Shown here: piece after piece, positions 3,676-21,936 of the stretch
Layout: every line of letters begins with the position of its first letter
Position numbering within the stretch: position 1 is the first letter of the stretch
IMG/VR virus record: IMGVR_UViG_3300031659_000096
Span: 1 to 23,909 of that record
Source: a virus
DNA length: 23,909 nucleotides
Direction: 5' to 3' (one strand)
Notes under the pieces: generated by a model
Databases searched by the model: none
Told to the model about the DNA's origin: nothing
Seen by the model: the letters and a program-made list of their open reading frames with translations, nothing else
Translations under genes and position numbers: made by a program

Positions 3676-3700
3676 TAATTATTATTATATTATATTATGG
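3676..3700 (+). promoter_or_regulatory. 25-bp AT-rich start-site element, copy 1
   Basis: A 25-base stretch of only A and T until its last two bases, identical to 6425-6449. It ends in the ATGG of the scaffold-like gene, as copy 2 ends in the ATGG of the 6446 gene. It contains overlapping TATATT/ATTATA units. It may be a translation initiation leader for a host that does not use Shine-Dalgarno pairing, or an internal promoter giving a very short or absent leader. The identity is seen directly; the role is inferred. Confidence 0.55.
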
Positions 3701-6424: not shown

Positions 6425-6449
6425 TAATTATTATTATATTATATTATGG
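6425..6449 (+). promoter_or_regulatory. 25-bp AT-rich start-site element, copy 2
   Basis: Identical over 25 bases to 3676-3700 and placed the same way, with the start codon at its 3' end. It follows the terminator within 3 bases, so genes downstream need either read-through or a new transcript start here. That makes a promoter role plausible, though a start this close to the ATG would give an almost leaderless mRNA. Translation enhancement is the alternative. Confidence 0.55.
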
Positions 6450-7534: not shown

Positions 7535-8197
7535 ATGGCAATAAGTATAGATACGGTATATCAAAAAGTTTTAACGTTTGCCAACAAAGAGCAAAGGGGT
7601 TATATAACGCCCCAGCAGTTTAACTTATTTGCCGACCAAGCACAGAAAGAAATATTTGAACAATATTTTTATGACTTGAACCAATTGAGTAGAGTTCCGG
7701 GTAGATCTGAAGAGTATAGCGACCTAGTACATAACTTAAATGAAAAGGTGGCTGTGTTTGAAAAATCAGATGGAACTGGGTTGACATTAGCTAACGTGTA
7801 TAGGTTAGGCACTGTTATGTCTAACGGGAAAGAGGTCGAAGAGGTACAGCAGAATGAACTCTTATACATGAATCAATCTCCTCTAACTGCACCATCATCA
7901 AACAGGAGGGTTTATGTTAGAACTGGGGCAACTACCATAGTAGTATATCCTAGTGGTGGAGCTACTAGCTACACATATGTGAGAAGCCCGTCAAAACCAA
8001 GTTGGGGATATGTGGTGGTGAATGAAAGAGCTATGTATGATTCGGGTAACACCATCAACTTTGACTTACACTTGTCAGAGGAATCTGAGCTGGTATATAG
8101 AATATTAGCGTTTGCTGGAATAGCAATGCAAAAACCAAACCTAACACAAGCAGCTATTGGATTGGAAACAGCTAAAGTACAACAAGAAAAACAATAA
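7535..8197 (+). CDS. Head-tail connector / ring protein (putative)
   Basis: A 220-residue protein beginning MAISIDTVYQKVLTFANKEQ and continuing RGYITPQQFNLFADQAQKEI. This N-terminal helical region is familiar from marine phages, where it lies just before the tail nozzle gene. The middle (residues about 75-170) is a beta-rich region with VYRLGTV, RRVYVRTGATTIVVYP and a WGYVVVNERAMYDS stretch. The C-terminal 40 residues are helical (ESELVYRILAFAGIAMQK). The order helix, beta domain, helix and the place upstream of the nozzle fit neck ring proteins of podoviruses (T7 gp11 or P22 gp4 role), but no residue motif proves this. It starts 9 bases after the small Cys gene, and its stop is 4 bases before the next start, so the two connector genes form one translational group. 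Confidence 0.6.
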   Translation: MAISIDTVYQKVLTFANKEQRGYITPQQFNLFADQAQKEIFEQYFYDLNQLSRVPGRSEEYSDLVHNLNEKVAVFEKSDGTGLTLANVYRLGTVMSNGKEVEEVQQNELLYMNQSPLTAPSSNRRVYVRTGATTIVVYPSGGATSYTYVRSPSKPSWGYVVVNERAMYDSGNTINFDLHLSEESELVYRILAFAGIAMQKPNLTQAAIGLETAKVQQEKQ

Positions 8198-8201
8198 ATA
8201 A

Positions 8202-9521
8202 ATGGGATTATTAGATAACACTACGCAGCAAGCTTACTACCAAGGAAATGATCATGGTAATTACCAATTTACCTCTTTGGATGATGTAATTAATCAGTTT
8301 ATTGTTGCTTATGTAGGTGAAGACAAAACAATATCAAAAGTTAAAAGAGTAGACGTTGCGTTCCATGCCCAGAGAGCTTTGCAAGAATTATCATTCGACA
8401 CACTCAAATCTACTAAAGCACAGGAGATAACTCTTCCACCATCACTGCAAATGACACTACCACAAGATTACGTCAACTACACTAAAGTTAGTTGGGTGGA
8501 TTCTTCCGGTATAAAACACTTGTTATATCCAGCAAGTAAAACTTCTAATCCACTTCCTCTAGCCCAAGATTCTAATAATGATTATATTTTTAATCAAGCA
8601 GCGGCATTAACATCTTCTACCAATTTAATTACAAATGGGGGTTTTGACAGTAGTACTGGTTGGACGGTAGACGCAGATGCGTGGGTTATTGGTGATGCCG
8701 TAATAACTACAACAGCTGGCAACGATAACACCTACAAAAATGTATTACAAGGTAATACCACTGCTGATGGGTATATATCAATAGCCGCTGACATCGTAGA
8801 GGGAAGAAGATACAGAATAACATACGATATTGTAGTGGCTTCTACAGCTGGTCAATTTACATTAGCAAATCACACTACTATAGCTAGCACTTTAAACTCA
8901 GACCCAAGCGATAACAATGTTGACCTTATCAACGAGACTATTATTGGTACACACTCAGTTGAGTGGCTGCAGGGGCCTAACAACACAGGTAAAATTAAAC
9001 TTTGGAATGATATAGCTTTTGATGGTGTGATAGATAATATAAAGGTAGTTAGAGTTGGTGATGGAGAAGACTCTACAACTTGGTCAAACTATAAGTCTGG
9101 AACATCATCAGAAAACCAAGATGACTATCAAGATGACACTTATTGGCCATTGGATGGATCAAGATTTGGTTTGGATCCTCAACACGCTCAAGCAAACGGG
9201 TCATTTTATATAGACAATCAATCTGGTAAAATACATTTTAGCTCTAATATTAGTGGAAAAACTGTGATCTTAGATTACATAAGCGACAGCCTTGGTACGG
9301 ATGGGGAAATGCAAGTTCATAAGTTTGCTGAAGAAGCTATGTATAAATCCATAGCATATGCGATACTATCTACAAGAGCAAATGTACAGGAATACATAGT
9401 ACAAAGATATAAAAAAGAAAGGTTTGCAGCTATTAGAACAGCAAAATTAAGATTATCAAATCTTAAATTAGAAGAACTTACTCAAATTTTAAGAGGTAAA
9501 TCGAAACAAATAAAACACTAG
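8202..9521 (+). CDS. Tail connector / neck protein with inserted jelly-roll-like domain
   Basis: A 439-residue protein whose outer parts look like a neck adaptor. Residues 1-130 hold helices (YQFTSLDDVINQFIVAYVGE; VDVAFHAQRALQELSFD) and a beta segment. Residues 290-439 hold more beta strands, then a long basic helical C-terminus (EEAMYKSIAYAILSTRANVQ and on to the end). Between them, residues about 139-288, sits a Thr/Asn/Asp-rich beta region that interrupts the adaptor and looks like an independent domain (listed separately). The gene stands directly before the nozzle gene (stop 3 bases before that start), so a contact with the nozzle is likely. Tail adaptor (P22 gp4-like) function is inferred from position and helix-beta-helix layout. 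Confidence 0.62.
   Translation: MGLLDNTTQQAYYQGNDHGNYQFTSLDDVINQFIVAYVGEDKTISKVKRVDVAFHAQRALQELSFDTLKSTKAQEITLPPSLQMTLPQDYVNYTKVSWVDSSGIKHLLYPASKTSNPLPLAQDSNNDYIFNQAAALTSSTNLITNGGFDSSTGWTVDADAWVIGDAVITTTAGNDNTYKNVLQGNTTADGYISIAADIVEGRRYRITYDIVVASTAGQFTLANHTTIASTLNSDPSDNNVDLINETIIGTHSVEWLQGPNNTGKIKLWNDIAFDGVIDNIKVVRVGDGEDSTTWSNYKSGTSSENQDDYQDDTYWPLDGSRFGLDPQHAQANGSFYIDNQSGKIHFSSNISGKTVILDYISDSLGTDGEMQVHKFAEEAMYKSIAYAILSTRANVQEYIVQRYKKERFAAIRTAKLRLSNLKLEELTQILRGKSKQIKH
8616..9065 (+). other. Carbohydrate-binding-module-like domain inserted in the connector
   Basis: Residues 139-288 of the connector begin with LITNGGFDSSTGWTVDADAW, a typical entry to CBM4/9-type or galactose-binding-like jelly rolls (N-G-x-F-D, then G-W-T). 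YISIAADIVEGRRYRITYDI follows, the usual strand pair of such folds, and KLWNDIAFDGVIDNIKVVRV matches the closing strands with a G-x-I-D-N-I-x-V motif. Trp and Asn/Asp residues could contact sugar. It is a visible module boundary, but ligand binding is not shown. Confidence 0.65.
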
Positions 9522-9524
9522 TAC

Positions 9525-12500
9525 ATGTCAGAGATTAAGCATCAGTTTACGGGTGGAAAAATGAATAAGGATCTCGATGAGAGACTTGTTCCTAATGGAG
9601 AGTATAGAGACGCTATGAACATACAAGTATCGACTTCAGAAGGTTCTGATGTTGGAGCTGTTCAAAACATATTGGGAAACCAGCTTGGGTGTTCGACTGA
9701 TATAACTCCAGTGGGATCCGTTACCGTTGGATCTGTTTCAGACGAGAAAAACGATTCTTTATATTGGCTTGTTGCCGGACCTATTTTGGGGGGAACTTCC
9801 TTAGCTACTTTAACAGCTGGTGGTAATCCTTATTATGCTAAAGACATGATAATGCGGAGAACTGCTAGTGGGTGTGAACCAGTATTAGTTGATCAATGGG
9901 CTAGTATATTCTCCAATTACGATGTAGCCAATAGTACGTACTGGGCGTCGACAAACGACAATAGTATTGTTTTAAGCGATACAGCCTTCTTAGAGCACAT
10001 TCAACTAGGAATGAGCGTATATGGAATTAATTCCGATGGTACTATAACGCCTCAAACACGAACGGTGACTAATATAGGTAATTTACAGTCTATTACAACG
10101 CCATATAGTATCGGGGTTGATGCTTCTGTAACTACTACGCTAACCCAATCTACTCCAACGCCAATAACTAGATTCGTAGCAACCATTTTACCGAACGCCC
10201 AGGGAGCTTATTCTGCTGTGATGGATGTTATATTTATTCAAAACACAAATAGTATACCTGGAGGTATTCAAATTGGTGATTATATTACATCGCAAGTTGA
10301 TTATTATGGGGTATATGCAATGAGTAGCGCACAAGTTATAGCTATATTAGGTGGTGGTTTATTCCAAATAGACACCCCGCTAGCAACTACGTCGGCAACA
10401 ATCACCCCTCCCTTAACAACATTACTTGTTGGGAGTGACGGAGTTGATTACTACCCATATTATCTTGGTGTGACGGGGACAAACGGTAGCAGCACTATAG
10501 ATAGAACATCGCAACCACTCACAAACGAAATTATACTACCAACAAATTCACAGTGGCTTAATGAGATAGCTGATTTATTTTGGGATGAAAATTTAGTTGC
10601 AATAGCTAGCCCACCAACTCTTGAGGTTTCTCCAAACGTAAATTGGCCAAACGGCGGATGTATATCTCCAAGTAGTGTAAATGTACCTGTTTTAAGCAGT
10701 GGCACCCTTGTATATGATAATATATTTAGGGTGGTTGATTGTACCGCTTATGCAGCTATTATGCCATCCAGCGCTATACCACATTCTATAACTCTAACTG
10801 TACCCATCAGCGAAGGCGAATTCAACAATCAAACTATTACTCTTGATGGTCCACTTCATTTGGGTGCTGGTTTTGAATACCTACATTTCTCAAGCGACAG
10901 GGTATTAAATTTCTCCGCTTCAAGACTAATAACAGGTATCAATATAATTGATGACATGTTATTTTGGGTTGATGGTAGGGAAGACACTTCGGGCGTCAGT
11001 AAAGTAATAGGTACCGAACCAAAGAAAATAAATATAAAAAGAAGTATAAGAGGTACTGATCTTAATGGTAATCTTCACACAAAATTAATAAACGATAATA
11101 CTAGTGTCACTGGTCCTGCTTTAAAAGAAGAGCACATAACCGTTATTAGGACTGCTCCTAAAACAGCACTAAGTTTTGATCTTATAACAGATAGGGATTT
11201 GGATAAGAATTACTCTGGGATAATGAATATATGCTCCTCTAGCGGGCCTAACATATCATCATTCACAAGCACGTCTCAAAACAGGAGGGATTTTAGCTCG
11301 CTTGAAGAAGGGGATATATTCAGAACTACCATTGATACCGATATAGATGGGAATGATGCTTTTGGATTGCCAACGTGGAAGGTGGGAACAAGAGTTGTGT
11401 TAAAGGAATTTGATGAGGCCGTTACACCAGCGATCCCCTTTACTGAAAATGAATATAGGATAAAAGGAGTTATTGTTAATTGGTCTGGAAATAAAATAGT
11501 GGGTACAACAGGAGATCCTGCACAAGTTTCTATAAAAGTTACATCAATAATAGGTTTTCCACCCACAACATCAACTACCTTAAATTATGCTGTAGACACT
11601 TATTTTGAGACGGCGAAGTTGTTTGAATTTAAGTTTCCTAGATTTTCATATAGATATAAGTATAGAGACGGAGAATATTCTACATTTGCTCCTTTTACCG
11701 AAGTAGCATTTGCTCCTGGTAATTTCAATTATCACCCTACAAAAGGTTATAATTTAGGTATGACAAATACAATAACCTCTCTTATAATTAGAGGTTTTGT
11801 GACGCAGGACATACCTAGTGACGTAGTGGGGATTGATTTACTATATAAAGAAGACGCTAGCCCCAACGTATATACTATTGATACTTTAAAACCAAACGAT
11901 CAAGTGCTTTCTGGAGCTGCCTTTAATAATTGGGATAGTAACGCGTACGAAATAACACATGATACCATTCACTCTGTGGTGCCGGCTAATCAACTATTAA
12001 GACCATGGGATAATGTCCCGAGAAAAGCACTAGCTCAAGAGGTGACTGGTAATCGCATTGTATATGGAAATTACTTACAGAACTATGATTTAACCGTTAA
12101 CAATCAAGATTTTTATCCAGAGTTCTCACTTTATGTAGCTGAAACAAAAAGCGCTCCGACAGTGCGATCTATAAAATCACTTAGAGATTACCAACTAGGA
12201 GTTGTATTTACAGATGAATATGGTAGGGAGACACCTGTTATAACAAATTCAAGTGGTACTTTCAAGGTACCGAAAAGTGATGCCAACAAAAGCAATGCAC
12301 TATCAGTGGGGTTTAATGGCAATGGCCCACCTGTTGATTTAGAATACTTCAAGTTCTTTGTAAAAGAAACTTCTGGAGAGTATTACAACATGGCTATGGA
12401 TAGGTTTTTTAATGCTGATGATGGAAATTATTGGTTATCGTTTCCGTCTTCGGATAGAAATAAGATTGATGAAGATACTTTTTTAATCTTAAAGAAAGGT

Positions 12501-15500
12501 CATGACTCTAAGGAATTGGTTGGAGATAAAGCTAGATACAAAGTTCTGGCGATTGAAAACGAGGCTCCTGATTTTATCAAAACTTCTCACTACAATATTG
12601 GACAAGTAAAACAACAAGACAATAATTTGTTTTCTAGTTTAGTTAATGCCCCAACCGAGACCAAAGATTATTTTAATATTACATCTCAACCCTTCGAAAG
12701 TGGTAGTGCAAGTGATATGCATAAAATTGAAGATCCATTATACGTAGAATTTGGCTTAACGTGGTCTAGCAAAGTATCTAATAGATATCGCATTACAGAA
12801 CTAACAAAACCTGATGGAGGAAGTACTTTCAACATAAAGATTGATGGTAGCTTCGGTAGCGATGTTAACTTCATTAGTAATGGTAGTGAGATTATAGATG
12901 GTGCTGTCATTAGATTTTATAAATATCAGGTGGAAAATAAACCTATATTTGACGGTAGATTTTTTGTAAAGATACTTAATGACGAGGTGTTTAAAAAGAA
13001 TATAGCGGTGGAAGATGTTGGGGATAAGGAATATATCGTGTCGGCAGAGAAGAAGATATATTTTATGTCTGGAGATCATATCAGTAGACACAACGCGTCG
13101 GGTACAGCTGGAACTTTTGGTGCCAACGCCAATATTAATGATAGTTATGATTCTGCTGGAGCCCAAACCTTAACCAACTTCCAGCACGGATCGTCATCTT
13201 CCTCTTCAACCTCTCAAAATTGGTATTACTATGAAACTTACTTTAAGAACAAGTTTTATATAAGCCCAGCAAGTGGATCACTACATACTAAACATAGGGG
13301 GGCTGATAAGATTTTTGAAGATGTAATGTTTATAGATAGAGGTTTTACAAGCGGTAACCATGGTCACAGTGGTCCGTTTAGGTTTCAACAACTCAACAAT
13401 ACTACTAGTAGCCAGGGTATAGGTGTCAAGAATTACACTAATATTGGTCGGATGGATTTGAGTTTTGGATCAATAGAGCCAGAAGAAAATGAAAAAAGGC
13501 TGTATAATGGAAGTGGTAGTGTTGATGTTATTGCCGCGAACGGTAAATACCACACGTCAACGTGGGATGAAAACTGGGAGTCTGGTGGTGAGGGTGCTGG
13601 TTTTTGGGATTTAACTAGCACTGATAGGAAAAAATATAATCATCTAGCCCCTATTTATGATAAAATACAATCTGGGCAACAATTCCGTTGGAAAGAAGAT
13701 CCTATGCAAACTATTTATACTATAACGCAACAAGTAGATAATTATAATGTAGTGAGGTTTGATAACACAACTGAAGGGTCTTATGTTTATAATGGTGGAG
13801 ATATAAATGATTACTACGGGGAAAGAGACAGTAATGGGCTTTTGGTAAAACATGGAACTCCATATACTCTAGCATCTAATTTCCAACAAAAGAAGAGATT
13901 TTGGTTTACACCTGCAATGTCAGCCTGGGATCCAACAAACCAAGATAGCTTGGGGCCTATAACTGGTGGGGCTAAGGTGGACGTATCAGTTAGTGATTGG
14001 GGTGATCCGACAAATAATCAAACAATATTAGCTGGAACCGCAGTAACAGGTCGTCCTAATACAATAACAATTTTTGAAAGTACATTCGATAATACTTATG
14101 ATACTGTTAATGGTGTTAGGTGGCAAATAGAAGAAGGAATGATACTCACACATATTGGTATTTCTGGAACTCTAACAGCGTTAGATAAACCGGTCTTAGT
14201 TGACAGTATATTTCGTGATAATTTGGCTAACGCATCTTATATTATCAGTTTTAAAGGTTATCAAGGTACCAGTGGAGAAGTAACTATTGGTGCACTTACT
14301 AATGTTTATGTTACTGGTCAAGCGCTAGTATTTAAGCAACCAGCGATGAATGGCTTAAGTGTTAATTCAGCTAATAATATAAGCGATTTCAATAGTGGTA
14401 CAAGTGATGGAATTGGTGCAGTTGGGTATACTATGGAATTTATAGAGGTGAAGGATGGGGATAACGAATTGCCACCAAATCCAGCTATTTGGGAAACTGA
14501 ACCTAAGGAATCTACAGATTTAGATATATACTATGAGATTAGTGGTAGTAACCCTATTAACTTAAACCCGTCTACTATAAAAACAGTTCTACCCGTAGGA
14601 TCAAAAGTGTCAAGCACTAACGGTGGTGGTTCTAGTGCGTTAACAATTATAGGTAATAATTCGATTGCTGGAGATACTATTATCTTAAGCCAAGCGCTTT
14701 GTGCTAATGCGGGTGGGTGTTATGATAAAGCTGGTAATTTAATATCAGGTGTCACTCCAGGAGTTATACTGTATGTTGAGCGCCCAAGTGGAACCGGTAT
14801 TGAGGTTGAGGTTGATGAGGTATTGGAAATATCTGGAAGTGGATACTCTAGGGTTTTTAGATTGAAAAACTCTTTATACAACACAAGTTATACTTTAAAT
14901 TGGCATAACTGTTATGCTTTTGGAAATGGCGTAGAATCAAATAGGATTAGAGATACTTTTAACCTACCATTTATTACTAATGGTGTAAAAGCTTCAACAA
15001 CTTTTGAGGAAAACTATAGAGAAGAGCATCGTAAATATGGTTTAATCTACTCTGGAATATACAATTCCAATAGTGGTGTTAATAATTTAAACCAATTTAT
15101 TCAAGCGGAGAAAATAACAAAAGACATAAACCCCATATACGGTAGTATTCAAAAACTACACTCTAGATCAGCAGCTGATGGTGATTTGATAGTCCTATGT
15201 GAGGATAGGGTATTAAAAATCCTTGCAGACAAAGACGCATTGTACAACGCTGATGGGAATTCACAGTTAATAGCAAACAACAACGTATTAGGGCAAACAA
15301 TACCTTATAGTGGAGACTATGGTATATCTAAAAATCCAGAATCATTCGCATCAGAATCATATAGAGTTTACTTCACAGACAAAGTAAGAGGCGCTGTAGT
15401 GAGATTATCTAAAGATGGATTAACGCAAATATCAGATCACGGAATGAAGGATTGGTTTAGAGATAATTTGAAATTATCTACAAAACTAATTGGTAGTTAC

Positions 15501-18500
15501 GATGATAGGAATGACGAATACAATATAACCCTTGATAACAGTGTTGATAACATTCCAAAAACGGTTTCGTTTAAAGAAGATGTGAGGGGTTGGGTGAGTT
15601 TTAAATCATTCACTCCTGAAAATGGTATTAGTTGTGCCAACGAGTACTACACTTTTAACAATGGAAAGCTCTGGCAGCATAACGATGAAGATCAAGATAG
15701 GAATACATTTTATAAGGTTTATTCAGATGATGGCTTTACACCATCAAGCATTAATGTTATTTTGAATGAATCACCTGGTAGCATTAAAACATTCCACACT
15801 TTAAACTATGAGGGGTCACAATCTAAAGTAGAAACATTTACAGATTACAACACATATTTTCCGGGAACAACAGTTGTGAGCGGTAGTACATATAACAACG
15901 AATATTACAATTTAGAACCTAAAGATGGATGGAAGGTACAAAACATAAGTACTGATCAAGAAGAGGGATCAATAAATGAATTTATTGAAAAAGAAGGAAA
16001 GTGGTTTAACTACATAAAAGGAAAGGTCGGTAGTGCTACTAATACCACATTAAATGATGGAAGCATAACTAGTGGACTTGATAATGCAGATTTTTCTTTC
16101 CAAGGGTTAGGCGTGCTACCAAGCACTGCTACCACTTCCAATCTACTTGGTTGTACTGCTAATGGTTTACTCGTAAACGCTAGTGGTGTGGTTAACGATT
16201 ACTTTGGCGACGGTGTCACTGCTTATAATTATAGTTCTATAGCTACTATTGAGGATGGATCTTGTATTGCTACAGAATATGGTTGTATGGATCCTCTTGC
16301 TGATGGTGGTAATAATTGTGAATGTAATGGGAACTTTCCTAATACGGATGATGGTTCTTGTATTTATGAAGGCTGTACTACGCTTGAGTCTACAAATTAT
16401 GATTCTAACGCAAATGCAGACGATGGTAGTTGTATTCCATTTGTTTATGGTTGTACTACTATTGGTCAATTTAATTATAACGTAGCTAATAACGTAAATC
16501 AAGTATCAGCAACTGACACTAGTAATCCTTGTGTACCGGTAATACTAGGTTGTATTAACGATGCTAATGCAACAAACTTTGCTGGGATTAACAATTTAAA
16601 TGGTGTTAACCCACCAGCTAATACAGATGATGGAAATTGCGAGTATGTTTACTATGGTTGTGTTGATACGGTGGCTTGTAACTGGTTAGATCCAGCTACC
16701 CTATATGGCAATCCAGTAACAGTGCTTACCGATAATTCTTGCGTTTACTGTGGTGATACTACTGCTGACAATGAGGACGGAGCATCTTGTAATGATGGGT
16801 GTTTATATTGTCTACTTGGAACTTCGTTTGGACTAGCTTATACGGCATCACCTGACGTGGAGATTGCTCTTCAGTGGAATCACAGTGTTGATAGTACAGC
16901 TGCTAGTGTTGTTAACTATGAGATTACATATGTAAATGATACCACTAGTGTTTCAACAACAACAACTGTAGCCTACAATGGTGGTGGCGTGCCACAATAT
17001 CACACTATATCAGGATTAACACAAAGTACTACGTACTATGTTTCAATAACAGCTGTTTGTGGTTCGTCACAATCAACTACTTCAACTGTTCACACTACTA
17101 CTGGAGTAACTCCGATTTATGGATGTACTGATCCTAATGCTACAAATGAAAATCCACTCGCTAATACAGAAGATGGTTCTTGTACTTATACTGGTTGTAC
17201 AGATAATGATCCATTAACCTCTCTTAACGGGGCTACTTTCTTTAACCACCCTAATCCTGGGAGCTTCTATACAAATCCAATTCAAGCAACTATTAGTGAT
17301 GGTAGTTGTGTTACTGTTATAAATGGATGTACCGATTCCATAGCAATAAATTTTGATTCCACTGCAAATGTTGATGATAGTAGTTGTACTTATCCTACTT
17401 ATGGATGTATGGATACATCATTAAATAACGCGGGCACAGCTATTGCAGCAACAAACTATGGGGTTCAGTATAATTCACCAGTGGGCTTTGCGGCTACTAT
17501 TCCAACTGCATGTACTTACGCTATGCCTGAGTTATGGACGGGTAATGATCAAGGTACACAATCATCACTTTTAGGTGTAACTGGATGGAGGAGTGGTGGT
17601 GTCTGGGCTAATCACAGAAGACTTTGGGCTATCTGGGACGTTAGTAATGCTCCAAAAATAAAAGGCACAGTGCCAGGAGACATACAATTTGCCTACCTGC
17701 AAGGAGCTACAACTAGTAACTACCCAGGTAATATAACTAGTTTTAACAACCCTAATCATATATGGTACAGTAATGATGACACCGCTAACTGGCTCGCGAT
17801 AAGCAATTGGATTGAAGGAGATCCAATTAAACTAATAAGGATACAATATGCAAACTCAGGAAAAGTAGCGTTTACAGGATCTAGTTACTCTAATGCCGTG
17901 AATTATCCACCACAAGTTACTTCTGGTTATACTGGTGAACAGCAAGCAGCTCGATTTAGCTTTATTGACCCTAACATTCCCGCATCGGATACTCCAATTG
18001 CTACGTATAACGTTACGTTAGGTTGTAATGATGCAACTGCTAGTAATTACGTTGCTCCGATTTCCTTCTATGATGATGCCGTACAGTGTAATTACCCTTA
18101 TACGACTGGGGTTACTACTTTTACTGGCAGCACGTCTCCTTCTTTTACCACTTCTACGCAGCCAGGCGTTTTTGTTAATACTATAACCAACGTTAGCTTA
18201 ACTTATACGCCTGCCATTCCTATAAATTTAAATCCAGTTGGCTATGAGTATCAAGCACAGTACATCGCTGATGGAGCTGCTTACGGAGTTCAGGCTGATT
18301 TCACAACATTCTTCCCGGTTCAAGGATATCAAGGGGCTGGTTATAACTCTTTTTTGTTTAGTAGCAACTTAGTGTTTGGCTTATCTACAACCACAACTTT
18401 TAATCCAAGTGGAAGAATAATACATATAAGAGCTAGAGCTTTAAGCGCGTTAGCAACTGCCTCGCAAAGTGGATCTACTCCAGCTATTCCAATCGGTGGT

Positions 18501-18530
18501 TGGGTTGACAGTTGGAGTCTAATTCCTTAA
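9525..18530 (+). CDS. Giant tail nozzle protein fused to a C-terminal adhesin (3001 aa)
   Basis: Covers over a third of the window. The N-terminus (HQFTGGKMNKDLDERLVPNG, then EYRDAMNIQVSTSEGS) is one I know from tail proteins of uncultured marine phages; such proteins occupy the place of the T7 gp12 or P22 gp10 nozzle. Residues about 1865-2080 contain IYGSIQKLHSRSAADGDLIV, RVLKILADKDALYNADGN, RVYFTDKVRGAVVRLSKDG and GWVSFKSFTPENG, resembling beta-propeller-like nozzle cores. The nozzle body appears to close near residue 2195 (NADFSFQGLGVLPSTA). From about 2205 to the end follows an adhesin-like extension: 11 Cys modules, a fibronectin type III domain, a Trp-rich globular stretch (about 2666-2830) and a final beta domain. 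The likely role is tail nozzle plus host recognition. No enzyme motif was recognised. The frame is open throughout, with no break. Confidence 0.75.
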   Translation: MSEIKHQFTGGKMNKDLDERLVPNGEYRDAMNIQVSTSEGSDVGAVQNILGNQLGCSTDITPVGSVTVGSVSDEKNDSLYWLVAGPILGGTSLATLTAGGNPYYAKDMIMRRTASGCEPVLVDQWASIFSNYDVANSTYWASTNDNSIVLSDTAFLEHIQLGMSVYGINSDGTITPQTRTVTNIGNLQSITTPYSIGVDASVTTTLTQSTPTPITRFVATILPNAQGAYSAVMDVIFIQNTNSIPGGIQIGDYITSQVDYYGVYAMSSAQVIAILGGGLFQIDTPLATTSATITPPLTTLLVGSDGVDYYPYYLGVTGTNGSSTIDRTSQPLTNEIILPTNSQWLNEIADLFWDENLVAIASPPTLEVSPNVNWPNGGCISPSSVNVPVLSSGTLVYDNIFRVVDCTAYAAIMPSSAIPHSITLTVPISEGEFNNQTITLDGPLHLGAGFEYLHFSSDRVLNFSASRLITGINIIDDMLFWVDGREDTSGVSKVIGTEPKKINIKRSIRGTDLNGNLHTKLINDNTSVTGPALKEEHITVIRTAPKTALSFDLITDRDLDKNYSGIMNICSSSGPNISSFTSTSQNRRDFSSLEEGDIFRTTIDTDIDGNDAFGLPTWKVGTRVVLKEFDEAVTPAIPFTENEYRIKGVIVNWSGNKIVGTTGDPAQVSIKVTSIIGFPPTTSTTLNYAVDTYFETAKLFEFKFPRFSYRYKYRDGEYSTFAPFTEVAFAPGNFNYHPTKGYNLGMTNTITSLIIRGFVTQDIPSDVVGIDLLYKEDASPNVYTIDTLKPNDQVLSGAAFNNWDSNAYEITHDTIHSVVPANQLLRPWDNVPRKALAQEVTGNRIVYGNYLQNYDLTVNNQDFYPEFSLYVAETKSAPTVRSIKSLRDYQLGVVFTDEYGRETPVITNSSGTFKVPKSDANKSNALSVGFNGNGPPVDLEYFKFFVKETSGEYYNMAMDRFFNADDGNYWLSFPSSDRNKIDEDTFLILKKGHDSKELVGDKARYKVLAIENEAPDFIKTSHYNIGQVKQQDNNLFSSLVNAPTETKDYFNITSQPFESGSASDMHKIEDPLYVEFGLTWSSKVSNRYRITELTKPDGGSTFNIKIDGSFGSDVNFISNGSEIIDGAVIRFYKYQVENKPIFDGRFFVKILNDEVFKKNIAVEDVGDKEYIVSAEKKIYFMSGDHISRHNASGTAGTFGANANINDSYDSAGAQTLTNFQHGSSSSSSTSQNWYYYETYFKNKFYISPASGSLHTKHRGADKIFEDVMFIDRGFTSGNHGHSGPFRFQQLNNTTSSQGIGVKNYTNIGRMDLSFGSIEPEENEKRLYNGSGSVDVIAANGKYHTSTWDENWESGGEGAGFWDLTSTDRKKYNHLAPIYDKIQSGQQFRWKEDPMQTIYTITQQVDNYNVVRFDNTTEGSYVYNGGDINDYYGERDSNGLLVKHGTPYTLASNFQQKKRFWFTPAMSAWDPTNQDSLGPITGGAKVDVSVSDWGDPTNNQTILAGTAVTGRPNTITIFESTFDNTYDTVNGVRWQIEEGMILTHIGISGTLTALDKPVLVDSIFRDNLANASYIISFKGYQGTSGEVTIGALTNVYVTGQALVFKQPAMNGLSVNSANNISDFNSGTSDGIGAVGYTMEFIEVKDGDNELPPNPAIWETEPKESTDLDIYYEISGSNPINLNPSTIKTVLPVGSKVSSTNGGGSSALTIIGNNSIAGDTIILSQALCANAGGCYDKAGNLISGVTPGVILYVERPSGTGIEVEVDEVLEISGSGYSRVFRLKNSLYNTSYTLNWHNCYAFGNGVESNRIRDTFNLPFITNGVKASTTFEENYREEHRKYGLIYSGIYNSNSGVNNLNQFIQAEKITKDINPIYGSIQKLHSRSAADGDLIVLCEDRVLKILADKDALYNADGNSQLIANNNVLGQTIPYSGDYGISKNPESFASESYRVYFTDKVRGAVVRLSKDGLTQISDHGMKDWFRDNLKLSTKLIGSYDDRNDEYNITLDNSVDNIPKTVSFKEDVRGWVSFKSFTPENGISCANEYYTFNNGKLWQHNDEDQDRNTFYKVYSDDGFTPSSINVILNESPGSIKTFHTLNYEGSQSKVETFTDYNTYFPGTTVVSGSTYNNEYYNLEPKDGWKVQNISTDQEEGSINEFIEKEGKWFNYIKGKVGSATNTTLNDGSITSGLDNADFSFQGLGVLPSTATTSNLLGCTANGLLVNASGVVNDYFGDGVTAYNYSSIATIEDGSCIATEYGCMDPLADGGNNCECNGNFPNTDDGSCIYEGCTTLESTNYDSNANADDGSCIPFVYGCTTIGQFNYNVANNVNQVSATDTSNPCVPVILGCINDANATNFAGINNLNGVNPPANTDDGNCEYVYYGCVDTVACNWLDPATLYGNPVTVLTDNSCVYCGDTTADNEDGASCNDGCLYCLLGTSFGLAYTASPDVEIALQWNHSVDSTAASVVNYEITYVNDTTSVSTTTTVAYNGGGVPQYHTISGLTQSTTYYVSITAVCGSSQSTTSTVHTTTGVTPIYGCTDPNATNENPLANTEDGSCTYTGCTDNDPLTSLNGATFFNHPNPGSFYTNPIQATISDGSCVTVINGCTDSIAINFDSTANVDDSSCTYPTYGCMDTSLNNAGTAIAATNYGVQYNSPVGFAATIPTACTYAMPELWTGNDQGTQSSLLGVTGWRSGGVWANHRRLWAIWDVSNAPKIKGTVPGDIQFAYLQGATTSNYPGNITSFNNPNHIWYSNDDTANWLAISNWIEGDPIKLIRIQYANSGKVAFTGSSYSNAVNYPPQVTSGYTGEQQAARFSFIDPNIPASDTPIATYNVTLGCNDATASNYVAPISFYDDAVQCNYPYTTGVTTFTGSTSPSFTTSTQPGVFVNTITNVSLTYTPAIPINLNPVGYEYQAQYIADGAAYGVQADFTTFFPVQGYQGAGYNSFLFSSNLVFGLSTTTTFNPSGRIIHIRARALSALATASQSGSTPAIPIGGWVDSWSLIP
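16149..18089 (+). repeat. Array of 11 Cys modules (GC...DDGSC) in the adhesin
   Basis: Each module opens with Gly-Cys, often GCTD or GCMD, has A-x-N-Y/F in the middle and closes with D/E-D-G-S-C or a worn form. Modules: 16149-16265, 16281-16361, 16371-16433, 16449-16532, 16548-16640, 16656-16742, 17121-17183, 17193-17309, 17325-17387, 17403-17513 and 18021-18089. Those at 16371, 17121 and 17325 have the minimal 21 residues; others carry loops. Seven keep a recognisable D-G-S-C-type end; 16449, 16656, 17403 and 18021 are degenerate. One Cys at each end suggests one disulfide per module; the acidic end may bind calcium (inference). The same module is familiar from Bacteroidota surface proteins. 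Confidence 0.85.
16818..17115 (+). other. Fibronectin type III domain in the adhesin
   Basis: About 98 residues splitting the Cys-module array. Strand pattern and markers fit FN3: the early Trp in VEIALQWNHS, the middle YEITYV strand, and the late HTISGLTQSTTYYVSITAVC, which is the characteristic L-x-x-x-T-x-Y-x-V-x-V-x-A signature, then a Thr-rich exit. FN3 domains are common in phage tail proteins and bind sugar or serve as spacers. Confidence 0.8.
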
Positions 18531-18558: not shown

Positions 18559-18924
18559 ATGCCATTAGCAACCTTAACATTTTATGACCCTCTAAACTCT
18601 AGTCTCCAAATAGGGGATATAGTTTATTATTCTAATAGTACTAGCCCCGCACCCAATAGCAATATCAAAAAAACAACTACAAGTAATGTTTTTAAGCTTG
18701 GCGTAGTATATAGTATAACATCAAACCCCACCGCTATAAATGTTATTTATGAAACTGGTACTGGTTTACCCCAAGCAACCGCTTATATAATGTTTGAAAA
18801 AGACAAGCAAGTTAATTCATCTAGTTTACTAGGTTATTATGCAAACGTTAAACTTGTAAATGATTCTAAAGGTAAAATTGAATTATTTTCTTTAGGATCA
18901 GAGGTTTCAGAAAGTAGTAAATAA
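18559..18924 (+). CDS. Small structural-type protein of unknown function (121 aa)
   Basis: A 121-residue mostly beta protein between the adhesin gene and the 537-residue structural gene. It has strand-like segments IGDIVYYSNS, FKLGVVYSI, AINVIYETGTG, AYIMFEKDK and a C-terminal block LLGYYANVKLVNDSKGKIEL, then FSLGSEVSESSK. That last block is one I have seen in small proteins of uncultured marine phages close to tail genes. No catalytic motif, signal peptide or membrane segment is visible. The start follows an A-rich leader (AAAAAACAACCT), without Shine-Dalgarno. A minor tail or virion accessory protein is the likeliest role, from position only. Confidence 0.65.
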   Translation: MPLATLTFYDPLNSSLQIGDIVYYSNSTSPAPNSNIKKTTTSNVFKLGVVYSITSNPTAINVIYETGTGLPQATAYIMFEKDKQVNSSSLLGYYANVKLVNDSKGKIELFSLGSEVSESSK

Positions 18925-18936
18925 TAAATTATATAA

Positions 18937-20550
18937 ATGAAAATAATAAAAAGTTTCAATTTAAACACAGGCAATATAAGGGGGGCTGGTGAGAATAGGG
19001 GGTTTACTATTCTCGGAGACAACGGCGCGTTGTTTAGTCTTGAGATAAAAGATGGATCTAATTACTACAACTTCCAAACTAATCTATTTCAAGCGGCTAA
19101 AACCAGGTTGAGCAACATAAGTATTACTGGGGGTGTTTATAAAGGAGATATTAAATTCCCATTAATATCATCGGGTGCTCAGTATGATATATACCTAACA
19201 GCAGAAGAAGATACTAAGCATGCGGACTACAAAGAAGTTAGGTTTCCAGATGGTAGTATGGATATTAATTCAACTACAGGGTCTAACTCTAGACTAGTGC
19301 AAAAAGTAATATATCAAACTCTAGACGTTACGGTCACAATCAACGGTTACTCTCCAAATGGGACTGTCACAGGTACTAATACAACGTCAGCTACAGTTAG
19401 TACTTCAAGAGAGCAAAGCACAGTTAAAATACCATTTACGCATAAGTTTACTGTTGCTTCCACTAGAACTCTATCAATTAATAAACAGCCTATCAGTGAT
19501 GATATTATGGCATTTATTACAGCTACTGTTGGTTCGCCTGTAGATATACCTGGAGAGAACACGTTTCCAACCGTTACTGGGACAGACACGGTGAACGGGG
19601 GGTTTGATGGAGCCACTAAGTTGCTTATGGATGCAAATGTAGCTACTAAAATGTCGGTGGGAGATAGGGTGACCGGTACTGGTATATCAAGTGGTTCTGT
19701 AGTTACAGTCGACGAGCTAGACCCAGATGGTGATAACGCAAAGGAATTCTCTGTTTCAGAAGCAGTTACTATTGGAGACGGTGTTACACTAAGTTTTAGT
19801 AATAGAAGAAATTATAGGTGGGAAATGTCCTCTACGTCGATCGATCTTAGTAGGTTAGCTCTTGGTATGAGGCAAGTTCAAGCTACTTTGTTTGCGGCTC
19901 GACCCGTTATAAAGGATTACGTTGACGAAGTCGTTATGTTTGAAGGTGAGAAAACCCAAAAACGGATTGAAAAAGTTAGAATACCAGGAGTGGATACCCG
20001 TAGTATAAAACCGCTAATAGTTAGAGACGGCACCACCAAGGTGGTTACGACGACTACAGGATCATCTACTAACCCTATTAATATAACGTTCGACCAGCAA
20101 GCTCTATTGAGCTTCGGGGGCGGTGCTAGCGCTAAGTTGTTTAGTTATGGAGAACCTGAGATAAATCGTTTAACTGGTTACGATGTAGAGTTTAGTGATT
20201 TGGCAGTAAGTCTAGCGGGGGTTTCAACAACTACTACAGCGGCGGTTAGCGCTAGCACAAGCGTACCAATCACACAGAGAGCTGGTATCATGGATGGCAT
20301 CAGCACTGTAAGCGGAATCGGCATTGATGCTTCTGCGGTAAATCCAACTGTTGCGTCGGGAGCTGGATCTGTTACTGGTGCTGGTACAATAGTGCTTAGC
20401 GCAGCTCAAACTTTAGAAGATGGTATAACATTAACTTTTCCAGGAGCTGGAGCAGTAGCCACTATAAGTGGTAATATAAAGATTAATCACGTGGGTAACG
20501 AAGATGTGACCTTGAGGTTTGATTTAGAGAAGTTCCTTACGATGCACTAG
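18937..20550 (+). CDS. Tail-associated structural protein with duplicated beta domain
   Basis: A 537-residue beta-rich protein. The N-terminal region (about 1-130) starts MKIIKSFNLNTGNIRGAGEN and carries GDNGALFSLEIKDGSNYYNF; a Thr/Ser-rich region follows. Residues 221-288 and 428-503 are two copies of one small beta domain, separated by a stretch with IDLSRLALGMRQVQATLFAA and VDEVVMFEGEKT. The C-terminus closes with NIKINHVGNEDVTLRFDLEK. There are no Cys and no enzyme motif. Position just after the adhesin and its small neighbour suggests a tail fibre base, appendage or decoration protein; this is inferred. It starts 12 bases after the previous stop, without Shine-Dalgarno. Confidence 0.65.
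   Translation: MKIIKSFNLNTGNIRGAGENRGFTILGDNGALFSLEIKDGSNYYNFQTNLFQAAKTRLSNISITGGVYKGDIKFPLISSGAQYDIYLTAEEDTKHADYKEVRFPDGSMDINSTTGSNSRLVQKVIYQTLDVTVTINGYSPNGTVTGTNTTSATVSTSREQSTVKIPFTHKFTVASTRTLSINKQPISDDIMAFITATVGSPVDIPGENTFPTVTGTDTVNGGFDGATKLLMDANVATKMSVGDRVTGTGISSGSVVTVDELDPDGDNAKEFSVSEAVTIGDGVTLSFSNRRNYRWEMSSTSIDLSRLALGMRQVQATLFAARPVIKDYVDEVVMFEGEKTQKRIEKVRIPGVDTRSIKPLIVRDGTTKVVTTTTGSSTNPINITFDQQALLSFGGGASAKLFSYGEPEINRLTGYDVEFSDLAVSLAGVSTTTTAAVSASTSVPITQRAGIMDGISTVSGIGIDASAVNPTVASGAGSVTGAGTIVLSAAQTLEDGITLTFPGAGAVATISGNIKINHVGNEDVTLRFDLEKFLTMH
19597..20445 (+). repeat. Two diverged copies of a beta domain within one protein
   Basis: Copy A (19597-19800, residues 221-288) reads GDRVTGTGISSGSVVTVDEL, then FSVSEAVTIGDGVTLSF. 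Copy B (20218-20445, residues 428-503) reads RAGIMDGISTVSGIGIDASA, then IVLSAAQTLEDGITLTF. The shared frame is a G-I turn, a V-x-V strand, and the closing S-x-A-x-T-x-x-D-G-x-T-L-x-F. Copies are diverged at DNA level, so the duplication is old or the domain was acquired twice. Confidence 0.65.
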
Positions 20551-20603: not shown

Positions 20604-21026
20604 ATGGAAGGTATTACAATAAGACCTATAAAAGAGGAAGACTACGTCTTTATAAATGAATGGTGGAAGAACATCGATAAACTACCACCATCTAGGAGTT
20701 TACTCCCTGAAAATGGGTTGCACGGACTTATGGCCTGCAAAGATGGTAAACCTATAGTTTGCACATACTTATACCTAACAAACTCTAAATTCGGTTATTG
20801 TGATTACATGATAAGTGATATGAAGTATAAAGGGAGAGATAGATTCCAAATAGTGTTAGAGTTAATGAATGCATCTATTGGAACAGCTTGGGAATTAGGG
20901 TGTGAGGATTTTTGGTTTATAACAAAAAACAAAGGAATGCTAAAGAGATGTAAATCTCTTGGTGTTAAAGTTTCAGAGGATCCATATTATCTAATATGCT
21001 CTTCAAATTCAAAAAAAGAAATATAA
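20604..21026 (+). CDS. GNAT-like acetyltransferase domain protein (degenerate CoA motif)
   Basis: A 140-residue protein resembling the GNAT fold: strand 1 ITIRPIKEEDYVFINEWWKN, a central strand KPIVCTYLYLTNSKFGYCDY, then MISDMKYKGRDRFQIVLELM and the helix NASIGTAWELGCEDFWFITK, closing with GMLKRCKSLGVKVSEDPYYL. GNAT enzymes move an acetyl group from acetyl-CoA to an amine. The usual acetyl-CoA loop (R/Q-x-x-G-x-G/A) is only matched by KYKGRDRFQ, so catalysis is uncertain. Similar proteins occur amid tail genes of marine phages. Its leader (20551-20603) is AT-rich with a TATATAAT stretch but no clear promoter. Possible roles are modifying a virion protein or a host target; it may also be a structural GNAT relic. 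Confidence 0.6.
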   Translation: MEGITIRPIKEEDYVFINEWWKNIDKLPPSRSLLPENGLHGLMACKDGKPIVCTYLYLTNSKFGYCDYMISDMKYKGRDRFQIVLELMNASIGTAWELGCEDFWFITKNKGMLKRCKSLGVKVSEDPYYLICSSNSKKEI

Positions 21027-21030
21027 AGAT

Positions 21031-21936
21031 ATGAATAAAAACAATAATAATACAGGACCAAGCCCGTTTCACAAGAAGGGTAAAAGTGAGGGAGACCAAA
21101 AAAGATCAGGATTATTTGGTGACTGGAAAGATGATGCTTGGGGTAGTGATGAGTGGGGAATAAAAGGTTTAGGTAAAAAAGTAGACACTGCTTTTGGGGA
21201 ATTCGGGGCGATTGACACAGAGACCAACCTATGGAGTGGTGCGGAAAACCTAATGGATATTGGAGATAATTTTGCTGGTATGGAAAACACAATGGAAGAC
21301 TTAACAGTTAACCAACAACAAGCTCAATTTCAATCTCAACAAGGAAATCAACAAAGAGCCAACATACTTCAGGGACTCAAAAGCTCTGCTGGTGGGTCTG
21401 GTGTAGCTGGCTTAGCTCAAGCTATGGCTAATCAAGGTCAAATACAAAACCAACAAATATCCGCTTCGATAGGCCAACAAGAATCTTCTAACCAAATGGC
21501 TAAAGCCCAGCAAGCAGCGAGTATACAGCAACAACAAGCTCAAGGTGCGCAACAAACTGATATAGCTATGGGGCAAGGGGCTATGGAGGCTCAGAAGTTT
21601 AAACTCCAAGGAGCTGCTGATGCTAGAGATCTAACGCTTCAACAAAAGCAAGGAGAATTATCATTTTTAGCTGGACAGCTTGGTGCTAGCGAAGCTAATA
21701 AAGATGCGGATACAGCTGGTAAATCTGACCGTAGATTAAAGAAAAATATTACAAAGATAGGAAAATCAGATGCTGGGTTGAACATATACTCTTTTGAGTA
21801 TAAAGACTCGTTAGATGGTACGGGAACGTTCCAGGGAGTTATGTCTGATGAAATACCACAAGAAGCAGTTACAAGTGTAGATGGTTATGATAGAGTAAAT
21901 TACAGTATGCTAGACGTAGAATTTAAACAAATATAA
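21031..21936 (+). CDS. Gln/Ala-rich internal virion-type protein with C-terminal S74-like domain
   Basis: A 301-residue protein. Residues 1-60 are polar (a run of Asn at 4-7, then Lys/Gly/Trp-rich). Residues 90-225 are unusually rich in Gln and Ala with long helix-forming runs (VNQQQAQFQSQQGNQQRA; MANQGQIQNQQISASIGQQE), typical of podovirus ejection proteins such as P22 gp7 or T7 gp14. Residues 232-301 are an S74-like segment (next entry). The start is 4 bases after the GNAT stop and the end is 2 bases before the next start, a tight pair with the 652-residue protein. Function as an internal, ejected virion protein is inferred from composition and place; no transglycosylase motif was seen. Confidence 0.6.
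   Translation: MNKNNNNTGPSPFHKKGKSEGDQKRSGLFGDWKDDAWGSDEWGIKGLGKKVDTAFGEFGAIDTETNLWSGAENLMDIGDNFAGMENTMEDLTVNQQQAQFQSQQGNQQRANILQGLKSSAGGSGVAGLAQAMANQGQIQNQQISASIGQQESSNQMAKAQQAASIQQQQAQGAQQTDIAMGQGAMEAQKFKLQGAADARDLTLQQKQGELSFLAGQLGASEANKDADTAGKSDRRLKKNITKIGKSDAGLNIYSFEYKDSLDGTGTFQGVMSDEIPQEAVTSVDGYDRVNYSMLDVEFKQI
21724..21933 (+). other. Short S74-like intramolecular chaperone domain
   Basis: Starts SDRRLKKNI at residue 232. In S74 peptidases the chain cuts itself just before this Ser using a Ser/Lys dyad spaced by five (S232 and K237 here). GLNIYSFEYKDSLDGTG and FQGVMSDEIPQEAVTSVDGY follow, with the usual end of the conserved core. Only about 70 residues are present; the long helical tail of full chaperone domains is missing. 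Cleavage is not proven. Confidence 0.72.

Follow-up and report, generated by a model that had tools for sequence, protein, structure and literature searches.

The muzzle of the Crassvirales (gp44 of PhicrAss001; PF25729, PF25731 and phrog_14478) is, in its typical form, a single chain that includes its own last barrel and has propeller, IG and crass domains. In a part of PMC10172136, it is described as a hexamer at the tail end that is thought to contact the cell and to gate ejection, the crass and IG2 domains are given as the places where insertions make its length vary, and disulfides are reported to be present in crassvirus tails. Searches of open-licence papers gave no description of a split muzzle, and a search of the same literature for the DDGSC or GCTDP module strings returned nothing bearing on them, as judged by titles. 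In the window, which is the whole stretch of DNA analysed here (positions 1-23,909 of an IMG/VR virus record, a fragment of a metagenomic record), the muzzle core is homologous to that of the Crassvirales and the gene neighbourhood is shared. The two differ in that the last barrel part of the window muzzle is a gene of its own and that an arm of approximately 790 residues with Cys modules stands at the break.

The window and its muzzle gene

The larger genes of the window were arranged in the order of terminase large subunit, portal, a PHROG-less gene, capsid protein, a gene with unknown function, two structural genes and the 3001-aa muzzle, followed by smaller genes, which is the crAss-like order of portal, capsid protein, further structural genes and muzzle. 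The capsid protein has a counterpart in Calle_1 annotated as major capsid protein, and its relatives in the phage collection came to 85 records, 83 of them Flavobacterium and Cellulophaga phages, all at less than 60% identity. By comparison with six named phages (Calle_1, elemoE, Gundel, Panino, phi19:3 and ctfjg026), the window genes at 3697, 4921, 7535 and 9525 were matched in all six, and those at 6446 and 8202 in five (the exception being Gundel_1), with the same order throughout. The genes at 7535 and 8202 were labelled as ring proteins from position alone. The product of 8202-9521 (439 aa) contains some 170 residues, at approximately 145-319, that five relatives (269-307 aa) lack, with a weak DUF7927 match at 144-230.

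The preliminary description had taken the protein for a phage tail protein, and profile search bore this out: the ORF at 9525-18530 (3001 aa) matched the muzzle family phrog_14478 with E 6.5e-129. The features of this protein, of its separate piece and of the neighbouring fibre-like gene all lie on the + strand. The muzzle core (residues 1-2208, 9525..16148) was delimited by phrog_14478 and by blocks of approximately 27-51% identity shared with the muzzle genes of the six named phages, and blocks homologous to the window muzzle were found in 87 phage records. A crAss_MUZ_C-like domain (residues 2059-2165, 15699..16019) was matched by PF25729 below threshold (E 5.1e-4, 20.9 bits, cut-off 27 bits), and an IMG/VR relative (L089) scored 30 bits against the same family, above the cut-off. 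These sequence comparisons identify the 3001-aa protein as the muzzle (nozzle) of a crAss-like flavobacterial phage. PDB profile searches with the muzzle C-terminal alignments (A1 and A6) returned no muzzle chain and only non-credible matches, and phmmer with the whole protein against the PDB returned nothing at E 0.1.

Downstream of the muzzle lies a gene at 18937..20550, here labelled fibre-like, whose relatives sit between two muzzle pieces in some contigs. Its product shares segments of 43% and 39% identity with the between-pieces gene of one such locus (L264) and matched no PHROG family. For the ORF at 20604-21026 (140 aa, phrog_17252), the related gene of ctfjg026 is annotated as an acetyltransferase complex subunit and a second relative (in L270) is 86% identical. 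The product of 21031-21936 gave a sub-threshold match to Peptidase_S74 (endosialidase chaperone) at residues 232-262. No defence genes were found among the three window proteins examined.

The break and the predicted barrel

The break was located with a 320-residue polypeptide of Panino, of which residues 1-218 match window residues 1926-2209 and residues 223-318 match residues 9-119 of the ORF at 18559-18924 (E 5.8e-07). Since this single piece spans both window ORFs, the Cys arm begins at the break in the muzzle gene. The separate ORF (18559..18924, 121 aa) also matched positions 185-237 of phrog_18548 with E 1.2e-4 and is the putative severed last barrel part (strands 2-6). The muzzle of Panino itself (L002:8515-12428) consists of two annotated ORFs about 110 bases apart, at yet another site and with no large insert.

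Relatives were fetched by the muzzle core, and the best 80 of at least 564 confirmed, together with the six named phages and the window, gave 87 loci. Fourteen of these (five holding modules) were left out because downstream sequence or a match was lacking; in the 73 classified loci the last muzzle part was a separate ORF in 63 and in the same ORF in 10. With its last part in a separate ORF, the window muzzle is called a variant of the Crassvirales muzzle, and this trait is common to 63 of the 73. The break fell at the window's site in 61 of the 63 (a class that comprises all split loci except phi19:3 and ctfjg026, and in which the core alignment ends early in L299, L305 and L315, at residues 2164, 2166 and 2101), and at an earlier site in these two phages. 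In 57 split loci of the 63, homology to the muzzle stopped within window residues 2188-2208. One locus (L254) was broken at both sites and carried a Cys arm on the middle piece. After the core, 17 split loci (the window included) have a module-bearing arm, 14 have another extension and 32 have fewer than 60 residues, and in 30 of these 32 an ORF of at least 200 aa, in several cases a relative of 18937-20550, lies between the two pieces. About half of the split muzzles are thus armless, which argues that the break is not there solely for carrying an arm. On a quickly built tree with 35 of 81 inner branches open, the split state required at least 6 changes and the modules at least 10, counted without direction; the loci are not all independent, since the pairs L258/L259, L262/L269 and L320/L321 have identical cores.

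In all 63 split loci the separate piece has a first Met (ATG by construction) ahead of the matched part, and in 60 it is 107-172 residues long. The muzzle stop codon is TAA in 58 of the 63. Of the separate pieces, 21 begin no more than 120 bases from the muzzle stop, and these are distributed over all three frames (13, 5 and 3), so a reassigned stop does not account for the pattern. An intron or a ribozyme was considered for the window and set aside, with no Rfam match at gathering scores. The cultured Cellulophaga phages phi19:3, phi18:3, phi13:2 and phi46:3 have split muzzles too. In these phages and in ctfjg026, the core is followed by an unrelated extension and the remainder stands in a downstream ORF, as in the window, with the break about 200 residues earlier than that of the window. 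For phi18:3, where the break corresponds to window residues ~2003/2010, both muzzle pieces (gp114 and gp115) are annotated as structural from MS/MS. The strict module was absent from the extensions of phi19:3 (L006) and ctfjg026 (L007).

The structure around the break was modelled on the C-terminus of an intact relative (L271) from 6 intact and 39 short rows; alignment A6 was used, and A3 and A5 were set aside because the short C-terminal rows were misplaced in them. The model was poor as a whole (mean pLDDT 52.3, pTM 0.34), but block pLDDT reached 90-98 over residues 351-420. Its predicted barrel has strands at 352-362, 367-370, 383-387, 391-400, 404-407 and 418-422 (this sixth strand lies partly in a block of lower confidence), and the break falls between strands 1 and 2, with five strands beyond it. 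The prediction thus supports one barrel that spans the break. The window equivalent of strand 1, by motif and by the intact model, is FSFQGLGVLP (residues 2190-2199, 16092..16121). Its QG-x-[GSA] motif was kept in 56 of the 61 muzzles split at the window's site, and QGID is seen in three of the remaining five. At the break turn, four of the five intact relatives aligned (L327 absent) have a longer and variable stretch than that of L271, and the insert of one of them (L268) exceeds 100 residues, with uncertain alignment.

Retention of a lone strand 1 after the cut fits pairing with the separate piece. In donor-strand complementation of pili, the sheet of one chain is filled out by a strand lent by a second; the window case would resemble it in so far as strand 1 is predicted on one chain and the remaining strands on the other, and the resemblance is meant as a likeness only. 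A few short muzzles have a second strand-like stretch after strand 1, with which simple strand donation fits less well. PDB matches to the barrel often began near residue 353 and included phage lambda and other tail-tip barrels with Z up to 7.7; at Z below 8 they may reflect a common arrangement only. Foldseek with the barrel gave none at E 0.001 or better.

The Cys-module arm and the distribution of its module

The extension of approximately 790 residues is composed of modules, a fibronectin type III (fn3) domain and two domains without family assignment. Of the 40 Cys of the protein, 10 precede residue 2200 and 30 follow it. The preliminary description had proposed eleven Gly-Cys...Cys modules at 16149-18089, and the limits of the first and the last module give exactly these positions. 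Modules 1-6 (residues 2209-2406, 16149..16742) were read at residues 2209-2247, 2253-2279, 2283-2303, 2309-2336, 2342-2372 and 2378-2406 (16149-16265, 16281-16361, 16371-16433, 16449-16532, 16548-16640 and 16656-16742). Modules 7-10 (residues 2533-2663, 17121..17513) were read at residues 2533-2553, 2557-2595, 2601-2621 and 2627-2663 (17121-17183, 17193-17309, 17325-17387 and 17403-17513) from the sequence and the model, and module 11 at residues 2833-2855 (18021..18089) from the sequence and the Cys positions. The pattern scan gave 8 matches covering nine of the eleven modules (the fourth and the fifth fused), and the other two were read off the sequence. The array was far beyond chance in 2000 shuffles of the same tail: [DTES]DG[SAN]C occurred six times versus a shuffled mean of 0.0115 (maximum 1), and the longer GC...DxGxC pattern four times versus 0.004 (maximum 1). 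The DDGSC type of ending that had been assigned to the modules thus holds in its relaxed form, the exact DDGSC being found in 2 of the 11. The reported length variation was reproduced (21 to 39 residues).

The statement that the last 800 residues of the tail protein hold 11 modules was right, and the modules are not continuous. Between modules 6 and 7 the array is interrupted by a Cys cluster (residues 2409-2429, 16749..16811), assigned from the Cys positions and possibly a worn module, and by an fn3 domain (residues 2446-2525, 16860..17099; PF00041, E 9.2e-07 for the whole protein, above the Pfam cut-off, and 1.5e-08 for the segment alone). Between modules 10 and 11 lies a domain of 168 residues (residues 2665-2832, 17517..18020) with no Pfam match at E 0.5, and module 11 is followed by a C-terminal domain of 146 residues (residues 2856-3001, 18090..18527), a candidate binding head whose best Pfam match was non-credible (E 0.21). 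The two module stretches of the window had tblastn matches in 116 and 160 loci, and the fn3 domain and the two other domains had none at E 1e-4 among the loci compared, so that, by these sequence matches, the arm resembles a stalk in common use that ends in a head of its own. In the 40 listed pairs of module-bearing relatives, tail identity was lower than core identity by local alignment (for example, 54.4% against 79.8% and 41.5% against 79.1%), as expected for a host-facing part; repeats align poorly, which lowers the tail values.

The consensus of 666 modules is 21 residues long, G-C-T-D-P-x-A-x-N-Y-[ND]-P-x-A-x-x-D-D-G-S-C, and the window modules conform to the defining pattern with two Cys, G-C-x4-A-x-N-[YF]-x3-A-x2-D-[DN]-G-S-C. 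The 21-residue window modules at 2283, 2533 and 2601 fit the consensus with one to few substitutions each, and the longer ones at their ends only. The structure prediction that had been proposed as a check was run for residues 2528-2668 and was informative for the canonical modules, with block pLDDT 92-96 in the first such module and 87-95 in the third, and not for the long-loop modules, which were mostly below 60. No Pfam or NCBIfam family matched the window modules above cut-off (best AcMNPV_Orf17, E 0.015). The EGF domain, by the Pfam EGF profile, has six Cys; neither the whole protein, searched at E 0.1, nor the module segments, searched at E 0.5, matched an EGF family, and the canonical module has two Cys. 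When 780 module cores were collected independently of Cys, 734 had both Cys, 32 the first only, 12 the second only and 2 neither (Fisher p 0.12). Among complete ORFs with at least two modules, the Cys total was even in 29 of the 55 viral ones, where even totals are thus no commoner than odd ones, and in 26 of the 35 from genomes. Neither count amounts to proof of disulfide pairing. Spacers within module arrays were 3-6 residues in 251 of 282 counted.

Scanning with a degenerate module pattern gave at least 120 stretches in viral contigs and at least 119 in genomes, both to be read as samples. The preliminary description had linked the module to surface and secreted proteins of marine Bacteroidota, and 97 of the 119 genome loci listed were indeed Bacteroidota, the others being 10 Fidelibacterota, 8 archaea and 4 single cases. 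From a random draw of 76 of 126 genome and 66 of 124 viral module ORFs (last 1100 residues of each), the type IX sorting domains Por_Secre_tail and CHU_C were found in 16 and 5 of the 76 genome ORFs; on contigs classed as viral, Por_Secre_tail was seen on 10 and CHU_C on 3 of the 66. Five of the 66 viral-contig ORFs matched the muzzle family phrog_14478, and others matched baseplate, tail and other virion families. By tblastn, the muzzle core and its last part were matched in none of the 119 genome loci. Marine Bacteroidota proteins that carry the module, a part of which bear type IX sorting domains, share the 21-residue consensus with the viral modules; unlike these, they frequently show a third Cys, at position 8 of the module (142 of 336 genome modules versus 20 of 330 viral modules). 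The module was also found in a Kyanoviridae virus and in cyanophages, and a search of the window tail against 50,697 phage records (tblastn, E 1e-3) gave a single match, a Kyanoviridae single-cell virus. Viral contigs searched with patterns from the window's own tail yielded no confirmed relative, whereas the degenerate module pattern did find some. When the 239 module loci listed were ranked by their match to the window tail, the top 25 included 23 viral ones, which favours exchange among phages over recent host capture. The module is neither host-only nor phage-only. Its confinement to phages and conservation with the nozzle, which had been named as the case against a host origin, was not what was found, since Bacteroidota carry it and at least 10 module changes occurred independently of the core.

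Beyond microbes and phages, a profile of the module array searched against the PDB found perforin-2/MPEG1 (best E 1.3e-4), a mammalian pore-forming protein in which a 21-residue stretch between the MACPF and the P2/MABP domains fits the module profile, in a single copy against eleven in the window protein. Foldseek with the module model gave three matches, all MPEG1 chains (E 1.7-2.7), two of them over 24 columns at rmsd 0.5-0.6 and one over 32 columns at rmsd 5.7, and VIA-align gave nothing at Z of 2 or more. According to a part of PMC6989145, a truncated EGF-like domain joins MACPF and P2 of perforin-2 and acts as a hinge; from its position, the module-matching stretch is probably this EGF-like domain. 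The module model also matched a protein known from its database row in BFVD (A0A7S9SUA2 of virus NIOZ-UU157, named crassvirus muzzle C-terminal domain protein) with E 2.3e-05. A MACPF-domain protein of Terrestrivirus (A0A3G4ZMM5, BFVD) gave a match of 30 columns with 50% identity (E 0.19), which echoes perforin-2.

A proposed two-piece muzzle and its alternatives

The reading that we favour, by a modest balance of probability, is a two-piece muzzle in which a barrel re-formed from two chains anchors an exchangeable Cys-module arm that contacts the flavobacterial surface. The break, its place, its recurrence and the gain and loss of modules come from sequence comparison and the shared barrel from the model; the reassembly, the disulfides and the host binding are inferred from these. 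Strand 1 would stay on the muzzle core, and the chain would continue past it as the arm of approximately 790 residues, made of a Cys-module stalk, the fn3 domain, more modules and two distal domains. The adjacent 121-aa gene would supply the remaining strands, which would form a non-covalent barrel with strand 1 in the virion. The barrel so re-formed would anchor the arm, with its stalk and swappable head, near the tail tip, where the arm would most likely touch or grip the flavobacterial surface. If the window muzzle is also a hexamer, each virion would carry six arms. The wider proposal, that many aquatic crAss-like phages build the tail-tip gate from two chains sharing one barrel (strand 1 and strands 2-6) and that the cut serves lastingly as a place where adhesin arms or fibre genes dock and are exchanged, is put forward tentatively, at somewhat below an even chance.

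Two alternatives concern the break. It was considered whether the extension is simply a variable receptor-binding one and the severed barrel piece of minor importance, having taken a new role (a free decoration or a chaperone) or being a relic of insertion. This accords with the varying order of the parts, which is core, other gene and last piece in many relatives and core with arm and last piece in others; against it stand the motifs of the separate piece, kept in divergent copies, the strand 1 kept on the core, and the structural annotation by MS/MS of the separate piece of phi18:3, though that piece contains more of the muzzle. It is held to be unlikely. An artefact, by assembly error, reassigned stop codon or intron, might be suspected in a fragment of a metagenomic record, and stop reassignment in some crAss-like phages is described in a part of PMC12386605. 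With 63 of 73 loci split, mostly at TAA stops and over three frames, with Rfam matching nothing in the window at gathering scores, and with cultured phi19:3, phi18:3, phi13:2 and phi46:3 split too, at the earlier site, this is judged very improbable indeed.

Two others concern the arm. The preliminary description had suggested capture of a host surface module and a possible ligand mimic, and it was weighed whether the arm imitates a ligand of the host surface, or comes straight from a type IX surface protein of the host, whose partners it would then bind. The module is common to Bacteroidota proteins, a part of which bear type IX sorting domains; yet the best tail matches among the listed loci are predominantly viral, the Kyanoviridae virus and cyanophages carry the module, the third Cys at position 8 is mostly a genome trait, and neither Por_Secre_tail nor CHU_C was found in the 3001-aa window protein at E 0.1. 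Direct capture is thus not borne out, and this explanation as a whole appears quite improbable. That the modules are metal-stabilised linkers or hinges which let the tip domains swing, rather than a stiff stalk, draws on the fit of perforin-2 to the module profile, on the hinge point described for its EGF-like module in a part of PMC6989145, and on the Asp/Asn-rich consensus; the 3-6 residue spacers in most arrays would favour a rod instead. It is regarded as rather unlikely, and it is compatible with the two-piece muzzle with an anchored arm.

The muzzle is regarded as the gate for the release of crassvirus DNA and proteins, and the recurrent break in its last barrel marks a definite point at which parts that contact the host could be gained or exchanged. 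The split muzzle is a two-gene system open to expression and testing. A Cys module of 21 residues, found in marine bacteria and in phages and without a family name, is now linked to a solved element of perforin-2, so that its fold and its disulfide become testable. If the docking-site reading is true, new arms or whole fibre genes would slot in at the break and leave the gate undisturbed.
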